The notes below the pieces were generated by a model that was not told where the DNA came from, did no database searches, and saw only the letters and a program-made list of their open reading frames with translations. From Pascua guehoae (lineage: Eukaryota > Basidiomycota > Tremellomycetes > Trichosporonales > Trichosporonaceae), in the NCBI GenBank assembly GCA_001600415.1, contig BCJX01000024.1, positions 118,040-182,039 of the forward strand: 64,000 nucleotides of DNA, written 5' to 3'. This document shows, one piece after another, positions 6,742 to 56,041 of the stretch. Within the stretch, counting starts at the first letter, position 1, and every line of letters starts with the position of its first letter. The position numbers and the translations under genes were made by a program.

Positions 6742-9700
6742 CTAGTACCCGCCGCCGAACGGGTTCTGCTGCTGACCCCAGCCCATCTGGCCCATCTGCG
6801 GGTTGTAGCCCGTCATCTGCGGCGGCATCATCCCACCGCCCATGCCCATCGGCATGCCCGTGCCCTGCATCTGCATGCCAGGCATGCCTGTCGCCTGCGG
6901 GTACATGCCGGTTTGCTGCGGGTACATGCCCGGCGCGCCGTTGTAGCCCGTCGTGAGCGGGCGCAGGGCGTCGTATTTGCCTGTGGGTCAGAGTGGTTCG
7001 GCACTGCCTCGCTGCACTCTCACCTGAAGGCTGGGGGTTCTGCCCCTCGTCCTTTGTAAAGTCTGTGCGCTTCATGGCCGAGAAAATGTTGGACGGGGCA
7101 AACTTGTCGTCGCCACCCGCGCCCGTCGGCTGCGGCACCTGCGGCGGCGGGGGCATGTTGGCAATAGAGTTAAAGACCGTGTTCTGCTGCTGCTGCTGCT
7201 GGGGGTATCCGCCAAAGCCAGTGTACGCTGGGCATTAGTACAACCAGCTTGCGAGTGAAAGTGAACAAAAGACTTACCCGGCTGCATCGCCTGTTGCTGG
7301 AACCCAGGCTGGTATCCTTGCATGCCCGTTGCCATGGGCTGCTGGAAGCCAGTGGCCTGGGGTGCCATGCCGCCCGAAAAGCTGCCAGCGCGTGTGGGGA
7401 CAAACATGCCCGTCACGGAGGGTTGCAGAGGGTTGAGAAGACCCTCGTTCTGCTTGACTGGCGCAAGCGGCCCGCGAGGCGCGTTCAGGTCCACTGCAGG
7501 TGGTTGTTGAATCTGCGGCACCTGTTGCTGCTGCTGCTGTTGTTGCTGCTGGAGGTGTGACATGGGAGCGGTGGTGTTGGCTGCGCCGAGGCCATAGCTC
7601 GACGGTGGGGGCAAGCTCGGCTGCGGGGGCATAGACGTCGCCCGCGTCAGCGTACCCTGCTGTGCTGCCTGTGCCAGCTCAGGGTTGGGCGCGGGGACGC
7701 CGGTGCTGGCGGGGCGCAAGGCCTGAATCTGGGCAAGAAGGGCGTCAGTCCCACCGTTTGCTGACGGGGGCGACGCCGTGGCAGGTGGGGGTGTGGGTTG
7801 CGCAGGCGGCGGTGCCGGCGACGTGGGCTTGGCGGCAGGCTTGATAGTCCAAGCGTCATCGTCAAAGCCAGACAGGAGGTTTTTCGCTGGCTCCGGCTCG
7901 GCGGCCTTGGGCGGCTCCTTCTTCTCTTCGGGCGGGGGCGAAACAGTGACAGGCGGAGTAGGCTTGCGCTCAGGCTCGAGTGGCGTGAGGGATACCTTGG
8001 CAAGCTGGTCGGAAGCAACTGCGAGCGCCGCTGCTTCGACGGTGGCTGGAGCTGTAGACGCCTTGCGCTCGGGTCGTCCGCGGCGCGTATTGTTGGCCAA
8101 CTTGCCGTCGGCGTTGGTGAATAAACCAGGAGGGGGGGCCGGCGCGGGACCCTTGGCACCACTGTTCTCGTGCTCTTGCAGCTTGCGGGCATACTCTTCG
8201 TCCGCGGTGAGCTGCGCTTCCTGCTCGGGCGTCTTCTTGCCGTACCGTCCCTTGATGACCTTGTTGACGCGAATGACATCACCCTCGCGCAGACCGAGCT
8301 TGCGCATGGTGGCGGGGTCGAGGTCGGCCAGAATGGTCTCGTCGATACGGTCGCGCTCAAAGTTGGCCGTGTAACGGGTGCAGTCGTCCATCTGACATCC
8401 GGCGTCGAGGAAGAAGGCAAACCAGTCGAATGCTGGCTTGCGTGGCTGCTGGGGCCGCGGCTCACGGCTCTCGCGCGGCTCACGCGACTCACGCGGGTGA
8501 CGCTCTGAGCGGTGGTGGGACTCATTGCTGAGTGTCTGCGACGGCTTGCGCGGCTGCTTTCCGAGTGGAACGTCATCGTCGTCGATAGACTGTTGACGGC
8601 GACGCTGCATTTGCTTGCGAACCAGGTTGACGTCCTCGGGCGACATTTTCTCGAGCGGTACCTCGATGATGACACCGTTCATCTTGTGCAGACGCAGCTT
8701 GTTGCCGCTCATTCCCAGGAATTCGGCCTCAACCTTGAACTGGCCAGTGCGGTCACTCCACACACGGGTCCGGTTCGGGTTGGGTTCTGTTGTCAGTACG
8801 TTTCCGTGTCTTGTCGTGCTCACTAGGCCGGTCCTCCTTGGGGGGTTCTGGCGCATTCTTGCCCCTGCCGCTTGGCAGGCTCCGTGCAGCCTTGTTGACG
8901 TCCTGCGCCGATGGACGCTTGGACACCTCGGGAGGCTCCCTGCTCCGGGCCTCTTCACGCCTGGTTGTCAGCAGTCGTCACATGTTGGTCAATGCTTACT
9001 TTTGCGCCCGACGGCGCTGCTCCTCGTCGTGTCGAGACGCCCTGTGCTCACGCTTTGCGCGTTCCTCGAGCTCAATCTGCTCGGCCAGCTCGCGGTCGGC
9101 GGCCTCCTGGGCCTCGCGCTCACGAGCCGCACGCTCAATAGCACGCCGTTGCTCAGCCTTGCGTTCCTCTGCCTTGCGTGCCATCTCGACATCGGCGGCA
9201 GCCGCGGCAGCAGCCTCCTCATGGGCGCGGCGGCGTTCGGCCTCCTCGTCGTGGCCGTTCGAGACCGGGCTCCCGCTAGCCCCAAGCTCGACGTATTGCG
9301 CAGGAACGACACCCTCCTGTCCTCTAGAGTTGCGAACAAGCCACCACTCGTCGTTTTCCTTCTCAACGACAGTGAGCTGCTCGCCCTCGACCACAGTGAG
9401 CTCGTCGTCGCCGCCCGCGTCAAAGTCGTAGAGAACGACGCAGCTCTCTTCGCGCCTGGCAGCAGGTGGCGCAGCGGGAGGCATAGACCTCTGTGGCGGT
9501 GGCAAAATCTCTGTGGGAGCGTCCTCTGCCCAGCGCACCGATTTGGTAGGGGGGTGTTCAGCCGGCGGCGGAGTCACCGCCTCTTCCTCGTCCTCCTCTT
9601 CGTCGTCAGAGGGTCCTGCAGGCGCCTCGTTGGCGACCTCGAGTGCCTCGCCGGCTGCCGCCTTGCTCAGCTCGAGCTTTTCGATAATGGCCGTGGACGT

Positions 9701-10591
9701 CTTGGAGCTGCCCGTGTTGAACTGCAGGGGCTGACCCATGCCCGCAATCGTGAGCGACAGGACCTTGGACGACGGCTGCTCGAGCGCCTGGAGATCGGTA
9801 ATGGGGTGCTGCTTGACTGGTGCCTGGGGGGGTTAGTACAACTTGCGAAACAGCACGGCCCACCTTGTCCGTGTCAGAGGCAAAGAAGATGGTGCCGCTG
9901 CCGACGCCCAGAGTGCCCTTCTTCTTCTTCTTGCCGTCGAGTTGGGAGACTGGCCACGTCTCCACCTTGTCCTTTGTCTTTAGCTCGCGTTGGCGAGCCG
10001 CGATGACACGCTGGCGCTCCTCCTCCTCCTCGGCGGCCCGCTGCGCCTCGATTTCGGCTGCGGAGGGAGCATGTCCCGCACCCGCGGCATCGAGCTCCTC
10101 GCAGTAGTTGCGGGGCACAAAGCCCAGCTTGTTGGTGCCGTCAATCTGCACAAGGACCCATTCATCCTCGTCCGCATAGACGTGCAGGACAGCGTCCTCG
10201 TCCATCGACAACTCCTCGGGAGAAGTGGACTCATATGCAAAGAGCGCCCTCGTGTGGCCGACTGGAGGGACCTGGTGTCAGACCTAGACCAGACCGGATT
10301 ACGACCTACCTCCTCGACGTAGGTCTTAGGAATGAGACCGACGGGGCCGTCGGTACCGTTTTGGTCGCCCTTGAGCTTGGCCTTCCACCATCTGTTTGTG
10401 GTTGAGACAATGTCGAGGTGGAGGGAAAGGAGGCACGGTCAGCATGAGATCTCGGGTACAGCTGGTCGCACTCACTCGTCATCTGCCTTTTCTATGATGT
10501 AGAGTATCTGGTTCTCGGCAAACGAAATCTCATCTTGGGGGTCCTGGGCTGTATAGTCGTACAGCGCCTTGGCGACGCCGACATAGGCCAT
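6742..10591 (-). CDS. SLA1: Actin cytoskeleton-regulatory endocytic adaptor Sla1
   Basis: Eight exons: 10591-10476, 10391-10310, 10271-9864, 9823-9000, 8960-8824, 8786-7278, 7227-7024, 6980-6742. All phases agree; about 1172 residues. Order of parts: N-terminal SH3 (about 5-64, ALYDYTAQDPQDEISF), second SH3 (72-126, ALFAYESTSPEELSM), a third SH3 (about 326-380, VLYDFDAGGDDELTV), a charged Glu/Arg/Ala helix (385-470), the SHD1 domain (about 524-580, with RVWSDRTGQFKVEAEFLG), a SAM-like SHD2 (about 640-705, DWFAFFLDAGC), a proline-rich region, a polyglutamine run, and C-terminal TG(M/F/Y) repeats of the kind phosphorylated by Prk1-type kinases. Sla1 links cargo carrying NPFxD signals to clathrin coats and the Arp2/3 activator Las17 at cortical actin patches. 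Domain order and starting SH3 match the yeast protein, so the identification is firm. Confidence 0.95.
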
Positions 10592-17998: not shown

Positions 17999-19077
17999 CT
18001 ATCCGTGGAGACTGTACACATCGACCCAATCATCATCGTGAATGCCGCAATACACCCAGCCCCGTTTTGCCCTGCATTTCAGGCACCAGGTCCTCGCCCT
18101 ATGTCGAGCTTCCCACCGCTCTCCAACAACCACCTCCGGGGGCCAAACCAACCACTTGTACTCCCCTTGACAGTACAGACATTTGTGGCGGTGCACCTCG
18201 GGGTCCAAGGCACTATGCGCTTTGTGGGTCTTCATCATGCGCGCATTCGCATCTAGTCGACAGAGGTAGCACGCATCGTACGCTGGGGTGCGATATGCCG
18301 CTGGGAGGTGCGGTGCATGGTTTGCTGCTTGAATAAGCTCAGCACCTCGGGTGCTGTAGGTGGACCAGCGGAAGACTCTGCGACATAACACGCAGTCCCC
18401 CACAATGGAGAGCTCGTCGTCTTTGAGGTCTTCCAGCAGTGGGTCCTCGCCGAACGGCCCCGTCACCCGTGGCCCGTAGCCCGCGGCCTCGGATGGCGAC
18501 ACTGAGAATACGTCCTCGTCAACGAGCTTTCGGAGCTCGAGCAGCCTCCGCCGCGCCTTGAATGCAGCAAGTGAGCGCTCCTCGACGTGTTTCAGGTGCT
18601 CAGCTGCAGCCAAGGTCAAAGCGACCGATCTGCCCATGTCCCTTGCCGATCCTTTGACCGCCTCCTTGGCAAGGGCGTGTGAGAAACCGGCGGCTTCAAA
18701 CAGAGCGACGCAAGGGTCGCGCTTCCGGGACTTCCGGGTTGACCGGTGAGAGGTCTCGAATAAGGGAGTTCTCAAGGTGCCTCGATACCAGTGAGAAAAG
18801 ATTGTGACTGTGGCGTTAATACCGAGATAACAATACGCCCCAGGTTTAGTAACATACCAGTTCCTGCCAGGTGGTCTTGGTTGAGGGACGGGTCGAGGAA
18901 GGACTTTGGAATGTGAATAGGCCGTGACCAGCGGTGGGGCTTTATCCACCTCGACTCTGGCGGCCCATAAACGCCGGCTTTGCGAGTATCACGCTTGCCC
19001 AACGTCACCGGCGGCAGCGACTCCTCCACCTGGGATCTCTGCTCCCTTGCCCAAGACGACGATGATGAAATGGGCAT
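17999..19077 (-). CDS. Cysteine-rich orphan, paralogue A of a divergent pair
   Basis: Two exons, 19077-18858 and 18807-17999, separated by a 50-nt intron; 342 residues. No known family recognised. The C-terminal half holds five paired-cysteine knuckles: CVLC (212-215), CYLC (253-256), CLYC (283-286), CLKC (315-318) and CGIH (327-330), the geometry of two or more zinc sites. Before them is the motif ERSLAAFKARR. The neighbour at 20045-21905 shares all of these with nearly the same spacing (41/43, 30/30 residues between the first three), plus a split-codon (phase-1) intron a few residues after a shared IP-(6)-PSL motif. These two genes are therefore duplicates, transcribed away from each other. 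The start at 19077 is preferred for its CACGATG context, but an in-frame ATG at 19248 would add 57 residues. No signal peptide or membrane helix is seen. Zinc binding is inference; function unknown. Confidence 0.8.
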
Positions 19078-20044
19078 CGTGGTTGTTGGCCAAAAGGGGA
19101 GTGCGTGCTGACTAGCGGGTTGGGGTGAGAGGGTGTGGTGGCAAAGTCGACGGTATGAGCCAGGTGGCAATTGAGGAGCCGAATACACCGATGTGAAGTC
19201 CGGGGTATTATATGAACCGATTGGTGTTGGCCGCCAGTCAATGTTCAAGAATCAGTGTGATGTTGAACAACATGATCCGATCCGGGCGAGTGGTGCAGGA
19301 GAGTAGACGTACGGAGGGTGTCAAGAAGGAACAAGAAGTGGCGTAGGGTGTCGGCTCTTGCAAGGTGTGCACGTCTGCAGCAGCTCGACATCTGCATGCC
19401 TCAGCACCCTTGCGCCTTCTCGTTCCTTTTTTGACGCCGCCTCAACCAAGTATGTGGTCATCAGACCCATCAGGTGAAGCCGAGCGGCCCAAGTAGCTGC
19501 TAGCTGAAGCGTGTTGGAGGGTGGAGAGCCGCCTTGATCACAGTCAACAGAGGCCCGTTCACCCGGTTATCGGCTTATCCGTCACATCGGCTTCCTTGCC
19601 AAGACATTCCAACAAGTACAACCCTTGCCGCCCTTGCCGTCATGACCTCCTCGCCCTTGCCACCCAGAAGAGGTATCCCGAAGCAAGCTTGACAAGCATA
19701 CTGTGTTCTGCACTGCACTGCAGCAAAGCATATATAGTACACGACTGTGCACTTGCACAAAGACAAACCAAACAACATCACATCCCAACGATCGCCGACT
19801 TGCACACCATATCCAGTCTCATACTTGCTCGACTCGGCGACTCAGACTCTGCGCAAGCCATACATACGACTTTACCCGATCGACGCGAGCTTGGTCACTC
19901 TTCTCGCTTCCTTTCATTGTCTACGACCAGAGCGTTCCTGCCACCATCATCCCCACCGCCCTCGAAGCACTCCAACAGCCCGACAAGCCCGTGCCGCCAG
20001 CTAGCAGTAAACCATCATCTTACAAGCTCTTGTCACCACCCAAA
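19078..20044. promoter_or_regulatory. Shared divergent promoter of the paralogue pair
   Basis: About 970 nt separates the two start codons. A TATATA box at 19731-19736 faces the plus-strand gene and predicts a long leader of roughly 280 nt. An AT-rich TATTATATGA at about 19206 may serve the minus-strand gene if its start is 19077. The arrangement could allow co-regulation. Confidence 0.5.
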
Positions 20045-21905
20045 ATGACCGCTTCGTCATCATCGCCTTCGGCGACGAAGGCAGAAGTCCCCTCAGAGTT
20101 GGCATCGTCATCCCCGAAAGAAGTCCCGTCATTATTCTCATCGGTTGCGTCGTGTTCCCCCTCCGAGGAGACGCAACTGCAACTGGCCCGCGACCAGCTC
20201 AAGCTGAACAAGGCTAGTGCACGCGATTGGCCAACACAGGCCGCGCTACCTACATCCGTACACCTTGCACGACGGTGGTGGTATCCATCTGTTCGCATAC
20301 CCACGGTCGCTTTCAATCCCTCCCTGCAGTCCGAGTTCCGGTATGCCTGTACGTTGGGCATACTGTCCGGCTTCAGGTGTCCCGCCGCTGACCGCAGTCC
20401 GGGTGCTTAAACGAAATCTGGGCCCCTGTGTCTCGATTTCCGAAATACTGGAATTTGCGGTTTGGGCCATGTGGGGCTGGTATGGAAGCGAGTTATTCCT
20501 CCTTGGCGACCACGTGCCGCTGAGGGGAATCGGCTGCGACGGCGACATTGCTGAGGCAATGGCGGCGACTGGCCGCGTGCACCGTGCAGTTCGGATGATC
20601 ACCATGGCGGCCGACCACGTCGCACATAGCGACGAACGTGCTCTTGCGGCATTCGAGGCAAGGAGGAAGGCGCTCGAGTCACAAGGCATCTCTCTCAAGG
20701 ACCCGCTGCGGTCGACCCCAAAAGAGGCTATACTCTGGACAGACGTCTCCTCGTCCACCCCGTTCCTCTCTCGGGCTGACGCGCGTGCAATCGCCGGCAA
20801 GTGTAAAGTGTGTCGCAGCCGATTCTTTGATTGGCGCCCTCTTACCCTTCGAGGCGCCGAGTTATTCCAGACCCTCCTCCGTCAAAGCTCGACTCGTCAG
20901 TCGGCTACCGGTACCCACAAGGCAACATTGCCGGCAGACCCCTCGACCAAATCAGCTCCTTTGTCATCAGGGGCCTCAAGCTCTTATCCACGACCCACAC
21001 CTTCTTCATTCCAGCAGCGTTGGTCCGTCGTACCGTTCGTCAGTGAGGAAGACAATGCCCGGCACCTCGAGCACAGCGACGAACGCGCACTTCGTGCATT
21101 CAAGGCAAGGCGTAAAAAGGTCGGGTGGAGCCCTGAGCATATGAGCGGTTTGGCCGACCCGCTCTCTAACTCGCCCAAGGTGGCTTCATACTACCTGGAG
21201 GACGATCTCAGTGGAGAACATCGCGGGGAACTCTACTTCTATGATAGGAAATGGGATGAACCGCTCCACAAAGCCGACCGACGCGACATTGCTGGGCAGT
21301 GCAGAGTATGTCGCCATGCACACTTTGACTGGAATGAGTTTGCCCTTCGAGGGGCGATGATCTTCCAATCTACTGCCCATGCACACCACATCCCACTCCC
21401 CGCATACGGTTCCCCCGAGTACGACGCCTGCTACTTGTGTCGACACGTAGTAAAGTACGAGGCGGACAAGATCCACCGCGCCCACGGCGACTGCGACCCA
21501 GCCGAGCAACAGCACGACTGCGCGATCTGTAAAAAAGACTGTCTTTGGCGGGAGAAGGCGAAGGAAAGGCAGAAGGAAAGGCAACGGCAGAGGGAAATTG
21601 AGAAGAAGAACGAGGAGGACAGAAAGAAGAGAGTCGAGTTGGCCAGACTCAATCGCCTCAAACAGTGCAGGGAACGCTGCACCGATTGCGAGTCGGCACG
21701 AAACGTTTCTCCGACCGCCAATTGCTCGGTCCACCACGACGGCTTCAGTGGTGGCTGGGGCAGCGGCGGCGGATGGGGAGGCGGCGGCGGGTGGGGTGGT
21801 GGAGATAGTGGAGGCGGCGGCGGGTGCGGTGGTGGGGATAGTGGAGGCGGCGGTGGAGGCGGCGGCGGAGGCGGAGGCGGCGGCGGGGGTGACGGTGGTT
21901 GTTAA
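20045..21905 (+). CDS. Cysteine-rich orphan, paralogue B with duplication and Gly tail
   Basis: Two exons, 20045-20348 and 20398-21905, with a 49-nt intron; 603 residues. The start has an ACCCAAAATGA context. Residues 1-60 are Ser/Pro-rich. The region around 155-260 carries HSDERALAAFEARR and CKVC (237-240) followed by LRGAELFQ. The same block recurs at about 328-425 (HSDERALRAFKARR, CRVC 403-406, LRGAMIFQ), so the first half of the domain is duplicated in tandem. Only the second copy continues into CYLC (446-449), CAIC (476-479), CTDC (529-532) and CSVH (544-547), matching paralogue A. Between the third and fourth knuckles is a charged Lys/Glu/Arg helix (about 480-525), absent in A. The tail (about 552-603) is mostly glycine with a few Trp, Ser, Asp and Cys. 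No known family recognised; zinc binding and nucleic-acid or protein binding are guesses. Confidence 0.8.
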
Positions 21906-24152: not shown

Positions 24153-25442
24153 AACAAGTTTGCGGTGGCAGGTTGAAGGAGGGTTAGAGTGGATCCGGGG
24201 AGTCGGTGATAGCGAGTTGGATGGGGTTGAGGCCCGCCGTTTAATAGTAGAACGTCCAGAAAAGAGCTTGGACAGAACGGTGCTTCGGGGTTGAAGCCCG
24301 TAGCAGGACTGTCGGCCGTCGGCCTTGTGTTGACGATAATCGCGTGGCCGACGGTCCTGACCAAGCATGGCGTGACCAAACTATGACACCATCAAAGCGT
24401 TTGCCTGCAACGAGCGGCTCCCAGTGCCGGCGATTGCGCCAATGTGTCTGCATCGGTCGCGCATTGTCCGACATGAGCCCCCGTTATCTGGAGATGCTGG
24501 AGGAGGGGCTTGATCGCCGGTGGCCATTTGATAGCCGGTGGTCATGGCATTGTGAGCGCTGAAAAAGAATCATGCCAGTGCGCGGAACCGTCTTGCGCTC
24601 ATACCGCGTATCAGAACAGATCAGTAGAAGGTTGCCTTATTTCTGTCCGCCAATTCGCGCTTCCGTTGAGCATACCTGATGTGAGCCTTGCAGTGAGGGT
24701 GCGTTGGTGAGGAACAGAGTCAACATGAGTGGTGAAAGCTCGAGATCCATCAAACGTACGTCATTGCCGCCACAGCGCGCCACTTGGGGCAGGCAGATTT
24801 TTGCTTGTATGATCCCCCCACATTAAATGGATCTGGGTGTTCCCTCTGATTCCCATCTGCGCGCTGCGGTTGGCGCTTTTTGATCGTTTTTGGGCCCCGG
24901 TTCTTGTCCGCATCCAGCCAGACCTTCCCTCGGTCACCACCCCCACCCCTCTCAACACTCGCTGGCACACGATCCAACACCGCCGACATCATCGACGGCG
25001 GCGGGCTCAGTGTCGACGACCCTCCCAACCCACCACACACACACACACACCCTCCGTTGGTGCACACTGGCATACCCTGTGCATCTCCCCCCCTCCCCCA
25101 TCTCGTCTGCAGGCGCGGCTCCACCACGCCCGCATCGGGTTTGCCCACGTGTCGCGGACAATAGGGTGGCGGGGAAGTTGACATATTGTTGGAAGAAACC
25201 AATCGGACGGACATCGGCTCGATCGACCATTGTTGAGACGTTTAAAGATTTCGAGCTCGGCCTCAAGTGGCGACGACCACGACACGGACAGTAGCACAAA
25301 ACGCACACAACCTGTATTACAACACAAACCCCAGGCACAGAACGACCTTGAACGATACAAGACGCGCATACCCCCTTCTCCAGCTTGCACAAGCCCTCGA
25401 TCTTCCGACGCCTTTGGTGGAACCCCCTCACTGCCATCCACC
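24153..25442. other. Divergent promoter region with a short CA repeat
   Basis: About 1.3 kb between the reductase start and the OTU-gene start. A CA repeat lies at about 25034-25050. The frame of the OTU gene stays open upstream to about 25230, but the better start context is at 25443, so 25230-25442 is treated as 5' leader. No other gene recognised. Confidence 0.5.
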
Positions 25443-27251
25443 ATGACCGACTCACCACATCCGTTAGGCTACGATCCAGACCCGGCGTCGCGCGGCGAAG
25501 GCAGCAGTACAGGACGGACGCGGCATCGCAGTCCATCGAGTTCGGGGCCTGCATCGCCTGTGCGCAAGGTTGCGAGGTACACTGGACCGGGTGAGGGGCC
25601 TGTGCGTACAGTGGCTGGGCAAGACGTGTCGCCATGCCACGCTCGACCACCACCCCTGAGGATTATCCTGCGCGCTCCAGCCCTTGTGCCCCCTCCCAGC
25701 GATGCGGTAGCGTTCCCGCCAACCAAGCGGCGCATGTTAGTCGGCGGCGGACGTCCTCGGCGAGCCGCGGCTGCGCGCCGTGGCGGCGCCTCTGGTGGTG
25801 GTGCCAACTCGGCCACGCACGACAAGGACTCACGTACACCGCGGGCGTCGCGTGCGTCGCGCCGCACGCGCTCTCGGCGGTCGACGGCAACGCCGACGAC
25901 GCTCGAATCCATCGCGGCCGAAGCAGTCGCGATCCGCGCCGAGGCCGAGCGTCTGGGTCTCATGCTCCGCGACGTGACGGCCGACGGCAACTGCCTGTTC
26001 CGCGCGCTCGCCGACCAGCTGTGGGGCGACCAGCGGCGGTACGTCGAAGTACGCAAGCTCGTGTGCGACCACCTCGAGTCGGCGCGTGGCGAACTCGGCG
26101 ACTTTGTCGCGGGCTTCCTGAACGATGGCGAAGACTATGACGCGTACGTGCGCCGCATGCGTGGCGACGGCGTGTACGGGAGCCACATTGAGCTCCTCGC
26201 CGCGAGCAAGGTGTTCCGGCGGAGTGTGCGTATTATTCTCTCACAGACGAGCTATACTGTCGAGTATCTCGCTTCCACTGCCCCTGCGTCTGCGTCTGGA
26301 GACGACAAGCAAGCCCCCGCAGAATCCAAGCGGCCTGCACGTAGAAGCACGCGTTCGACGACGACCATCCTTCGCGCCGAGCCTGAAGCAGGCGACGCGG
26401 CGGCACCACCTTCGGATAACCCAGAGTACGCGTCGGCGCTCGCCGACTACATTCCCCCGGTCAAGCCTGGCGCCAGCATGCTCTGGCTCGCACTCTTCGC
26501 CGAGGCCGAGCACTATGAGAGCGTCCGCCGCCGTGACCGTGGCGGCACAGGCCCTGCCGAGATTCCCGACACACTCGCAGTCCCCCACGCACGCGACGTC
26601 TCCGAGGCCGCGCGCAGGGAACGCGGTGAATCCATCCCCGAGACTGTGGACAAGCGGAGCAAGGCAAAGGGCGACAAGGACCCGCAGACTGGCCGTCTTG
26701 CCCAGCTCCTCGCATCCCTCCCTGCCGGCCACGGCGTGCCTGTCGACGCAGCGGCGGGCGTCCTCGCCCGTGCAAAGGGTGATGTCGGCGCGGCCGTCGA
26801 GATCCTCATTGAAGACATCAACCTCGGCGTGTACGACGGCGACGACGCCAGTCCCGACAGCGGCACCACCAGCGCCACGACGCCCGACCCGAGTGCAACC
26901 CCGCCCCCGTCCGCCGTCGACGCCGTCACCGACCGCGAGTCGTACCGCGAGCGTGCGGCGTCGCCGAGTTCGTCCGAAGCCGACCCCGCGTCGCCCACGA
27001 GCACCGCACCCACGAGCCCGCTCAGCCACGCAAGCAGCGACGACGACGACGACGCCGAGAGCGAGTACAAGGACAGCGACATGGACACGGATCCCGAGCC
27101 CGTCACCAAGCGCGAGACCCGCGGTCCACCGCGAGAAGTCAAGCACCTACCCCGCAAGACGGCGCAGCGCGAACGTGTGCCCGACACCGAGCCCGCGGGC
27201 GAACAGGGACGCGTCCTCCGCCCCCGACGCCGCAACGGAGGCAAGATGTAG
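25443..27251 (+). CDS. OTU-domain deubiquitinase
   Basis: Single exon, 602 residues with the ATG at 25443 (CATCCACCATGA context). An in-frame ATG at 25230 would add 71 residues. The OTU cysteine protease domain spans about 165-365: the loop VTADGNCLFRALADQ carries Asp181 and nucleophile Cys184, followed by YVEVRKLVCDHL, a GVYGSHIELLAASKVF segment, and catalytic His357 in AEHYESVRRRD. Such enzymes remove ubiquitin; OTUD3-like proteins share this layout. The OTU domain is interrupted by an acidic/basic linker of about 45 residues (about 283-325). A UBA-like helical segment (LPAGHGVPVDAAAGVLARAKGD, about 424-455) follows, suited to holding ubiquitin chains. The C-terminal 150 residues are acidic then basic and disordered, with NLS-like clusters. 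Confidence 0.9.
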   Translation: MTDSPHPLGYDPDPASRGEGSSTGRTRHRSPSSSGPASPVRKVARYTGPGEGPVRTVAGQDVSPCHARPPPLRIILRAPALVPPPSDAVAFPPTKRRMLVGGGRPRRAAAARRGGASGGGANSATHDKDSRTPRASRASRRTRSRRSTATPTTLESIAAEAVAIRAEAERLGLMLRDVTADGNCLFRALADQLWGDQRRYVEVRKLVCDHLESARGELGDFVAGFLNDGEDYDAYVRRMRGDGVYGSHIELLAASKVFRRSVRIILSQTSYTVEYLASTAPASASGDDKQAPAESKRPARRSTRSTTTILRAEPEAGDAAAPPSDNPEYASALADYIPPVKPGASMLWLALFAEAEHYESVRRRDRGGTGPAEIPDTLAVPHARDVSEAARRERGESIPETVDKRSKAKGDKDPQTGRLAQLLASLPAGHGVPVDAAAGVLARAKGDVGAAVEILIEDINLGVYDGDDASPDSGTTSATTPDPSATPPPSAVDAVTDRESYRERAASPSSSEADPASPTSTAPTSPLSHASSDDDDDAESEYKDSDMDTDPEPVTKRETRGPPREVKHLPRKTAQRERVPDTEPAGEQGRVLRPRRRNGGKM

Positions 27252-53958: not shown

Positions 53959-56041
53959 AGACGTCTACCGAAAACTGCCAGCGGTGCTGCTTGTCAGCTT
54001 GGTCTGTGGTAGAGCATCTAGCCGACTTACCTCAAGGTAGCCCTTCAGCGTATCGTCGAGAAGAATGTCGTGGCGCTTCTGGACGTAGGCGGCCTGGTTG
54101 GTCACGTCTGAGCGAATCTGGGCAATGGGCTGACCGGCCATGTCGGATTCGAGAATATAACTGAGGTTCTCGACTGCGCGCTCGAGGTCGCGCTGGTTGT
54201 CCTCAAAGAGCTCGGTCATGTTGTTGCGCTTCAGGCTGTGGTGTCAGTGCTACACTCTCCAATACGCGTTTTAACCCACTAGAAAGCAAGGCAGTACGAC
54301 CACTTGAGCAGAATGCGCGAGGTAATGACGACGCTGACGGCGTCGCGCGCAAACTGCACCTCGATCCACGAGAGGTTGCCCGAGTTCTGCATCTGCTCCA
54401 TCTTCTTCTCGGTTTGCTTGTAAAAGTCGGCATCGAGCTTGGCAGACTGCTCGTGGTTTGCCCAGCGGTTGAAGTACTGGCGGGTTAGCAGCGGATAATG
54501 CGCGTAAACCCACGTGAAGATACCGTTCCAGACTCTGGCGGCTCTTGGCCTGGTTATCCCTGGCGTTGACACCAGCCTTTTCGTCAAAGCGGTTGCACTG
54601 GTACCACGACGTGCCATGCTCCGACCACGGGCCCATGCACACCCAGCAAAACTCCCACTTGCACTTCTTGCAGGTCATGTGGCTGACGTGTTAGCATCCA
54701 ACTCGGACAAGGCCTACCACCCACTTGCAGCCACCATTCTTCTCGATGGTCGAGTTGCACTTGGGGCACTCCTTGGTGTGTGCGCTGAGCCAGTTGGCCG
54801 TCTCCGAGTCGTCGGCACACTTCTTCTCCCACAGCTTGACAATCTTGCAAATGACGGGGCGGTGGTCGGCCGCGTAGCCACAGCCAAAGCACAGCGAGTG
54901 GCCACACTTGCACAGCACAGTCGGGACCAGCTGGTTGAGCATGCGAGGAGGCGCCTGCGAGCACTCGATCGCGTACTCGCACCCAGGGTGAGGGCACCAG
55001 CGCAGGTTTGGTGAGTCGGCCACAAACGCCGAGTTGAGCAGCTCGTGATACCTGGAAGTCAGTTATATGCACATGACCTGCGAGTTACAGTCAACTAACC
55101 TGGTCGCAACCACCCCGTCCACCAGCTCGTCCACTGCCTCTTCACGCACAACGCGGTTGCAGTCCTTCTCCATGCATTGGACGCGTCCGCTCTCGCCCTC
55201 CTCCTTGATCTTGACCGACAGGTATTGCTGCCAGCACTCGCGGCAAAAACGGTGTCCGCAGCCGAGCGAAAACGTCGCAGACTCAAAGTCGTCAGGGGGA
55301 TAATCGTTGCAGCAGATGGGGCATTCGAACGCCTCACGGCGCCTTTGCCTGAAAGGATTGCGGCTCTTGAGGGGTGGTAGGGAAGCTGTCGACGTGCTCG
55401 GGGACGATGGTGGGGAAAGACCAGCAGCCTGGAGTGACTTGGCGGGGTCGGTCCAGAACTCTTCCTGTAACCGCTCTGCGTTCCACTGGTAGTGGCGGAG
55501 GAGAATTTGGGCTGTCGAGGACTGATCGTCAGCCACAGTGTTTCATTCACACTGTAGATCGTAATACTCACGGGGACTTCGAGGAGCTCTTGGATCTTCT
55601 TAACCTCCTTCTCTTGCATCTCGGCAAGCTCCTTGAGGGAGCGCACTTTGTACGCGACGTCATACGGCTTCTTGGCGGGCGGCTCTGTGGCGTCAGATGG
55701 ACGATGGATGATGGCTGACTCACCTTCGATACCGGGACTCATCACATCAAAGACGTCCGGCTCAGTCTCAGAGTCTGTCGTGGGTGTTAGTACGGTGTAT
55801 ATATGGAGGGAAGGTATGGTTGCCTGAAACCGAGGAAGCCCGAGGAAGGTGCTCCCTGGTCACGCGTGGCGTGCGATGCCACACCAACTCTGGATGCGAT
55901 GGCGAGCAGCTCCTCGCGGGTGGCGAGGGAACGTGTCGCGCAGCAAGGTATCTCAGACCACTTACCCTCGTCCATGTACTCATCCTGGCCAAAGCCGTCA
56001 TCATCGACGTCGTCATAGAAGTACTCGTCGTCGGAGGACAT
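53959..56041 (-). CDS. Ariadne-type RBR E3 ubiquitin ligase
   Basis: Nine exons: 56041-55966, 55774-55724, 55684-55572, 55521-55100, 55051-54725, 54682-54514, 54476-54280, 54235-54031, 53991-53959; phases agree, 530 residues. An acidic N-terminus (DDEYFYDDVDDDGFGQDEY) is followed by a UBA-like segment (ILLRHYQWNAERLQEEFW), RING1 with CPIC and CGHRFCRECW, the IBR with WCPHPGCEYA, CKCGHSLCFGCG, and the Rcat domain with CPKCNSTIEKNGGCNHMTC, whose GGC cysteine is the thioester site. The Ariadne domain covers the last 200 residues (SLERYLHYFNRWANHEQSAKL; QHRWQFSVDV end). RBR ligases take ubiquitin from E2 (UBCH7-type) onto their own cysteine; Ariadne proteins work with neddylated cullins. An ATG at 56206 in the same frame could extend the N-terminus by 55 residues. 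Confidence 0.95.

Follow-up and report, generated by a model that had tools for sequence, protein, structure and literature searches.

The window analysed here, a 64,000-nucleotide stretch of contig BCJX01000024.1 from the basidiomycete Pascua guehoae, carries a divergently transcribed pair of genes, termed A and B, whose products are rich in short cysteine and histidine motifs (Table 1). The head-to-head arrangement and the protein lengths proposed by a first-pass annotation of the sequence are confirmed by the open reading frames (ORFs) taken together with predicted splice sites. Each gene consists of two exons, the first measuring 220 nucleotides in A and 304 in B, and the single short intron of each is bounded by splice sites that are predictions; a second acceptor for the A intron lies 27 nucleotides further on (intron end 18781) and would yield a protein of 333 residues. 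The intron falls in phase 1 in both genes and at nearly the same place, 11 residues (A) or 10 residues (B) past a 'PSL' motif common to the two proteins.

Table 1. Coordinates of the A/B gene pair and of the putative domains of its products; motif numbers give the first residue.
Feature	Window position	Strand	Details
Gene A	17999..19077	minus	342 residues; predicted exons 19077..18858 and 18807..17999, stop codon included; from open frames and splice-site enumeration
Intron of A	18808..18857	minus	Predicted, 50 nucleotides, phase 1, GTATGT..CACAG
Divergent spacer	19078..20044	.	967 bp, predicted start codon to predicted start codon
Gene B	20045..21905	plus	603 residues; predicted exons 20045..20348 and 20398..21905; from open frames and splice-site enumeration
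Intron of B	20349..20397	plus	Predicted, 49 nucleotides, phase 1
A, UBA-like helices, residues 106-147	18587..18712	minus	FEAAGFSHALAKEAVKGSA at 110-128, ending in HLKH 144-147; from profile match
A, putative zinc modules, residues 144-330	18038..18598	minus	HLKH144+CVLC212, HAPH237+CYLC253, HKAH268+CLYC283, CLKC315+CGIH327; suggested pairing
B, degenerate internal copy, about residues 145-280	20526..20933	plus	HVAH175+CKVC237 retained
B, full copy, residues 324-547	21063..21734	plus	HLEH324+CRVC403, HAHH429+CYLC446, HRAH461+CAIC476, CTDC529+CSVH544
B, Gly/Trp/Ser-rich tail	21735..21902	plus	C-terminal

As the first-pass annotation had proposed, A and B belong to one family, their homology lying above chance: BLASTP aligns them with an E value of 6e-24 and 37% identity across 166 residues, and a search of the fungus's own genome returns the A-B match at E 2.6e-19. 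The likeness of their first exons is modest (99 of 5000 shuffles score at or above it). Across 182 codons aligned between A and the full copy in B, identity at codon positions 1, 2 and 3 is 0.55, 0.55 and 0.44, respectively, and at residues common to the two the third base agrees at 6 of 17 fourfold and 26 of 34 twofold sites. Third positions are thus more diverged than the first two, which is the pattern expected of old coding duplicates under selection. The G+C content at third codon positions (GC3) is 0.67 and 0.64 for the pair, against 0.64-0.83 in seven adjoining frames.

The ten CxxC or CxxH knuckles reported previously, five in each protein, all sit exactly at the residues assigned to them (A 212, 253, 283, 315 and 327; B 403, 446, 476, 529 and 544). 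The even spacing ascribed to them holds for the first three and is lost in the remaining ones, and the H-x-AH motif described ahead of the third knuckle is present there but is one of a series, since an HxxH also stands ahead of knuckles 1 and 2. Both proteins therefore show three HxxH motifs, three CxxC motifs and a terminal CxxC/CxxH pair; all 16 of these putative ligands are conserved between A and the full copy in B, giving four possible zinc sites. Between the first HxxH and the first CxxC lie 58-75 residues, which include the ERxLxAFxARR motif, in A and B alike. In the full copy of B, CTDC is preceded by a stretch rich in K, E, R and Q. The degenerate internal copy, which matches the full copy with a BLASTP value of 3e-19, has lost its second HxxH and CxxC as well as its third CxxC, and its third HxxH has become HKAT, with one histidine left; its CKVC constitutes a sixth knuckle of B that had gone unnoticed.

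Searches of Pfam, NCBIfam and PHROGs with A and B returned only sub-threshold matches to unrelated families, and PDB sequences gave no match to A or to an A/B profile; the earlier statement that no known family is recognised stands on these searches. The sub-threshold entries (DUF6461, DUF6027, SLX1_C, CEP104_ZnF, zf-CXXC and APH_6_hur, together with a PHROG zinc-finger entry at E 0.014) were taken as chance. In a collection of 5.8 billion proteins, nothing was found for the pair at E<=10 among 2759 candidates, nor among the 7998 best-sharing candidates, and viral and prokaryote contigs, to which the family of relatives described below was also compared, gave no confirmed match. As a control, the neighbouring OTU protease frame (25182-27248) drew 33 matches, the best from Apiotrichum porosum (56%) and the other named ones mostly from Kwoniella and Cryptococcus, with Cutaneotrichosporon. 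Such matches point to a Tremellomycete, most probably within or close to Trichosporonales, which the collection covers only distantly; at this sampling the pair is lineage-restricted.

Searches of the fungus's own genome (33.6 Mb) lead, through a chain of matches, from B to a set of simpler proteins. B matches a protein on contig C5 (E 7.3e-12) over its third HxxH-CxxC unit, the charged stretch and the Gly/Trp tail. Stripped of that tail, the C5 protein finds C15:630014 (E 4.8e-5), which in turn finds C20, C7, C15:571751, C15:628465 and C2:1070271. Later links of the chain reach C1:904564 (E 0.08) and C14:699982 (E 0.30), both weak and both retained for their motif and leave-one-out scores. 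A later query with the module itself added C2:1065653, and the Pfam UBA route led to C2:2288259 and C1:152001, the former by that route only. Module queries hit 14 distinct places in the genome at E<=10, 11 of which carry the module. Places lacking it were dropped (C1:853587, C23:149763 and C17:181009, E 0.09-0.16), no module was seen in C10:1086745, found with the tail-less full copy of B, and matches of B to C14:535341, C11:886475, C1:3078577 and C12:1206318 were of low complexity or unclear and are left uncounted. Twelve open frames besides A and B were retained, with 13 modules among them.

All 12 frames share one order of elements: a G[FY] turn, an HxxH 25-34 residues on (25 or 26 in 11 of the 13 modules), then a CxxC, which follows the HxxH after 6-20 residues in 12 modules and after 63 in the remaining one. 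Eleven frames hold a single CxxC over their entire length and no HxxH within 60 residues past it. The twelfth (L029:7738-8412, contig C15, minus strand, 225 codons) holds two modules in tandem, the first CxxC running straight into the second UBA segment (CNMCALLSMGF). When each is scored against a profile of the others, the 12 modules so treated reach 26.9-61.0 bits. Two of these genes lie within about 2 kb of each other on C15, with a third some 57 kb off (L021, L029 and L040), and two lie within 5 kb on C2 (L042 and L076), which suggests local duplication. A glycine-rich stretch (at least 18 Gly in some 40 residues) like that of B is also found in 5 of the 12 frames. Several modules (frames L021, L037, L040, L046, L047 and L064) are shortly preceded by a basic-aromatic motif of the type WWRxL, PWYRRL or RGLxRLF, to which, judged by eye, RRWWYP in B and HRWSRP in A may correspond. 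A short frame on the plus strand of L015 (about 1498-1626) combines a CxxC, HVRH and a glycine-rich run, much like the C-terminal end of B; it may be a further member or a product of chance.

The helical part of the relatives' module is, by its sequence, a UBA domain. Seven of the 11 modules submitted to Pfam (the long-insert module on C14 and C2:1065653 being left out of the 13) match PF00627 at E<=0.1, the best at 1.2e-7, and those of C7, C2:2288259, C15:571751 and C15:628771 exceed the Pfam cut-off. Run against the PDB, an 11-module profile finds the UBA domains of USP14, USP5, USP13, NUB1 and Mud1 (best E 6.6e-8); most of these matches stop at profile position 33-38, and the first histidine of HxxH occupies position 37. 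Pfam UBA detects 18 places genome-wide at E<=10, six of which, in five genes, belong to the set described here. For the places outside it, the frames of 8 of 12 were inspected and contained no module.

The connection of A and B with this family is carried by one profile match. A profile built from 12 modules, with neither A nor B included, scores 17.1 bits on residues 107-154 of A, the best of 2000 shuffles of A and 2000 of B reaching 9.8; among the 678 ORFs of the window, A comes first at E 1.2e-4 and the second at 0.53. A profile restricted to the UBA part (13 modules, the C2:2288259 row shortened) gives A residues 1-143 the same 17.1 bits, a score equalled by none of 5000 shuffles, and among the window ORFs A stands at E 3.6e-5 with the second at 0.079. 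The elements of the module follow in order in A, with GF at 114, HLKH at 144 and CVLC at 212. An AlphaFold2 model, computed with A and the two B copies as its sole input, is all-helical and of middling confidence (mean predicted local distance difference test score (pLDDT) 64.3, predicted template modelling score 0.60). It places two short helices (108-112 and 117-124) and a long one (128-165) in A, and GFS 114-116 falls within the turn; these three helices appear in the order and at the places expected for a UBA domain, in a block whose pLDDT is 69-87. Fold comparison of the model returned no confident match and barely covered the UBA-like part.

The first-pass annotation had pictured one compact five-knuckle fold standing alone with two or three zinc sites. 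That picture finds no support: serial HxxH+CxxC modules with four sites fit better, and the N-terminal part of A matches a UBA-module profile derived from other genes of the genome. Rather than founding a new fold of their own, A and B probably form a zinc-rich, derived offshoot of a UBA-type family that has expanded in this fungus. On balance we favour placing them in a UBA-plus-HHCC zinc family, as derived members with several modules each, in which each CxxC pairs with the HxxH upstream of it. Descent and pairing taken together, function apart, are slightly more likely than not, and the family would then comprise at least 14 genes in one genome, the 12 frames plus A and B. Zinc binding is inferred from the conserved ligands only; the ligand pairing, the fold of A and B and the descent of B, through A only, are likewise proposals.

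The basic unit would consist of UBA-type helices, the third running into H-x2-H, with a C-x2-C 6-20 residues on (63 in one case). The two histidines and two cysteines may together bind a single structural zinc ion and so pin the end of helix 3 onto the segment that comes next. A would then comprise a first unit with recognisable UBA helices, two shortened units (HAPH+CYLC and HKAH+CLYC) and a terminal CLKC+CGIH, amounting to four zinc sites along a chain that is largely helical. To the eye, the LRGAxxxQ motif resembles the RGDxxxA start of helix 3 (TRGAELIQAANHAPH in A, TRGDVAAAIDLALHETH in C15:571751), and by this likeness knuckles 2 and 3 resemble the unit in shortened form. B would consist of a decayed first copy, a full A-like array, the charged stretch and the glycine-rich tail, both proteins having diverged fast from the family. 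Their role would likely be non-catalytic, that of a zinc-stabilised scaffold for binding proteins, perhaps ubiquitin.

Several results weigh against this assignment. The 17.1 bits of A fall below the score of every true module; B, at -12.5 bits, does not match the 12-module profile, its UBA part scores 0.9 bits (reached or exceeded by 318 of 5000 shuffles), and adding A to the profile raises B only to 8.5 bits, against 7.9 for the best of 3000 shuffles. As its own profile tests fail, B would be a member through A only, by homology. Most of the B-C5 score comes from the glycine-rich tail: once this is cut off, the full copy of B retrieves only A and B themselves from the family at E<=10, and not C5. 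Used as a genome query, A retrieves no module gene, again including C5, with which its pairwise likeness is non-significant (268 of 3000 shuffles equal or exceed it); nor did module queries ever retrieve A or B from the genome. Profile-profile alignment with hhalign gives a weak score (probability 3%, E 0.015), albeit in the right register, and Pfam UBA finds nothing in either protein at E<=10. The first-unit gap between HxxH and CxxC is 64 residues in A, longer than in any of the 13 modules, 75 in the full copy of B and 58 in the decayed one, against 6-20 in 12 modules and 63 in the other. Finally, the motif is present in the relatives partly by selection, since the frames were filtered on it.

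The silence of Pfam UBA, the weak hhalign result, the failure of the module profile on B, the failure of A, and of B without its tail, to retrieve any module gene and the want of any sequence match among solved structures are what one would expect if A and B were an unrelated orphan family with a multi-zinc fold of its own, the UBA likeness of A arising by chance and the glycine-rich tails being mere low complexity. We regard this as unlikely, though it is the most serious of the alternatives: A scores above all 4000 and all 5000 shuffles with profiles built without it, it is the sole clear match among the 678 window ORFs, and the further matches of the 12-module profile within A (2.0 and 0.7 bits; residues 232-259 and 250-287), although too weak alone, land on its other HxxH/CxxC stretches.

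A second alternative accepts the motifs and pairs them the other way, each CxxC with the next HxxH (CVLC+HAPH, CYLC+HKAH) in the manner of C2H2 fingers, the last CxxC motifs forming separate sites. The resulting spacings, C-x2-C-x21-H-x2-H at knuckle 1 of A and C-x2-C-x11-H-x2-H at knuckle 2, are plausible for zinc. Yet HxxH stands ahead of CxxC in 11 of 11 single-module frames, with none in the 60 residues after it, and the decayed copy in B, which keeps HVAH and CKVC with its second pair gone and one histidine in its third, lacks any HxxH over the 80 residues past CKVC, favouring upstream pairing; the downstream arrangement is accordingly improbable. A RING or other cross-brace finger of a ubiquitin ligase, hinted at by a weak likeness between the end of the module profile and the RING of ARK2C/RNF165 (E values from 0.039 upwards), is very improbable, since A and B match none of Pfam RING, PHD and FYVE and the four ligands of single-module relatives are too few for a cross-brace. 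Least credible of all is that the pair is decaying or non-coding, as the want of relatives in the protein collection, the decayed copy inside B and a negative result for the B frame in a rough test of codon usage, with the window as training set, might suggest, for both frames are open with 16 of 16 ligands kept, codon position 3 has diverged more than positions 1 and 2, and GC3 falls in the range of the neighbouring frames.

Elsewhere in the window, positions 53968-54243 give a sub-threshold match to the Pfam Ariadne domain (E 1.3e-4, 22.3 bits against a cut-off of 23.5) and may represent one exon of a gene for an RBR-type ubiquitin ligase. On the minus strand, an SLA1-like endocytic adaptor is found in pieces at 7075-9832, with matches to SHD1, SAM_4, SH3 and PH_SLA1. 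Bases 37574 and 37577 are each a single undetermined N.

UBA domains are usually metal-free. Should the assignment of A and B to the UBA-plus-HHCC family be right, a zinc site can form an integral part of a UBA domain, and single-module relatives offer a way to trace orphan cysteine-rich proteins back to a shared fold; the model predicts four zinc ions per A domain and one per simple module. More tentatively, and with rather less assurance than the family assignment itself, a basidiomycete yeast lineage may have turned UBA into a zinc-stapled module, spread it over a dozen or more genes and built it into four-zinc rods in one head-to-head pair, which would make it a kind of zinc-dependent domain, binding ubiquitin or other proteins, that had not been described before. 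Among the papers listed in literature searches, judged by their listings and the openings of abstracts, none deals with a family of the UBA, HxxH and CxxC type.

Comparison with known systems places the module closest to UBA (PF00627, of the USP5/USP14, NUB1, Mud1 and Rad23 type), with which the relatives share the helices and the (M)GF turn; the modules differ in having HxxH directly past helix 3, followed by CxxC, and A and B lie below Pfam detection, the helical part of B being eroded. The UBZ, NZF and ZnF-UBP fingers, none of which is among the Pfam matches of A and B, would resemble the module in combining zinc with possible ubiquitin binding; their ligand order and fold are other than the module's. 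C2H2 zinc fingers share two cysteines and two histidines per module and differ from it in ligand order, which is H-H-C-C in the relatives, and in fold, the low-confidence AlphaFold2 model being all helix; no Pfam C2H2 family appears among the A/B matches at E<=10. RING-H2 fingers likewise show H-x2-H and then CxxC, but use eight ligands where single-module relatives have four.

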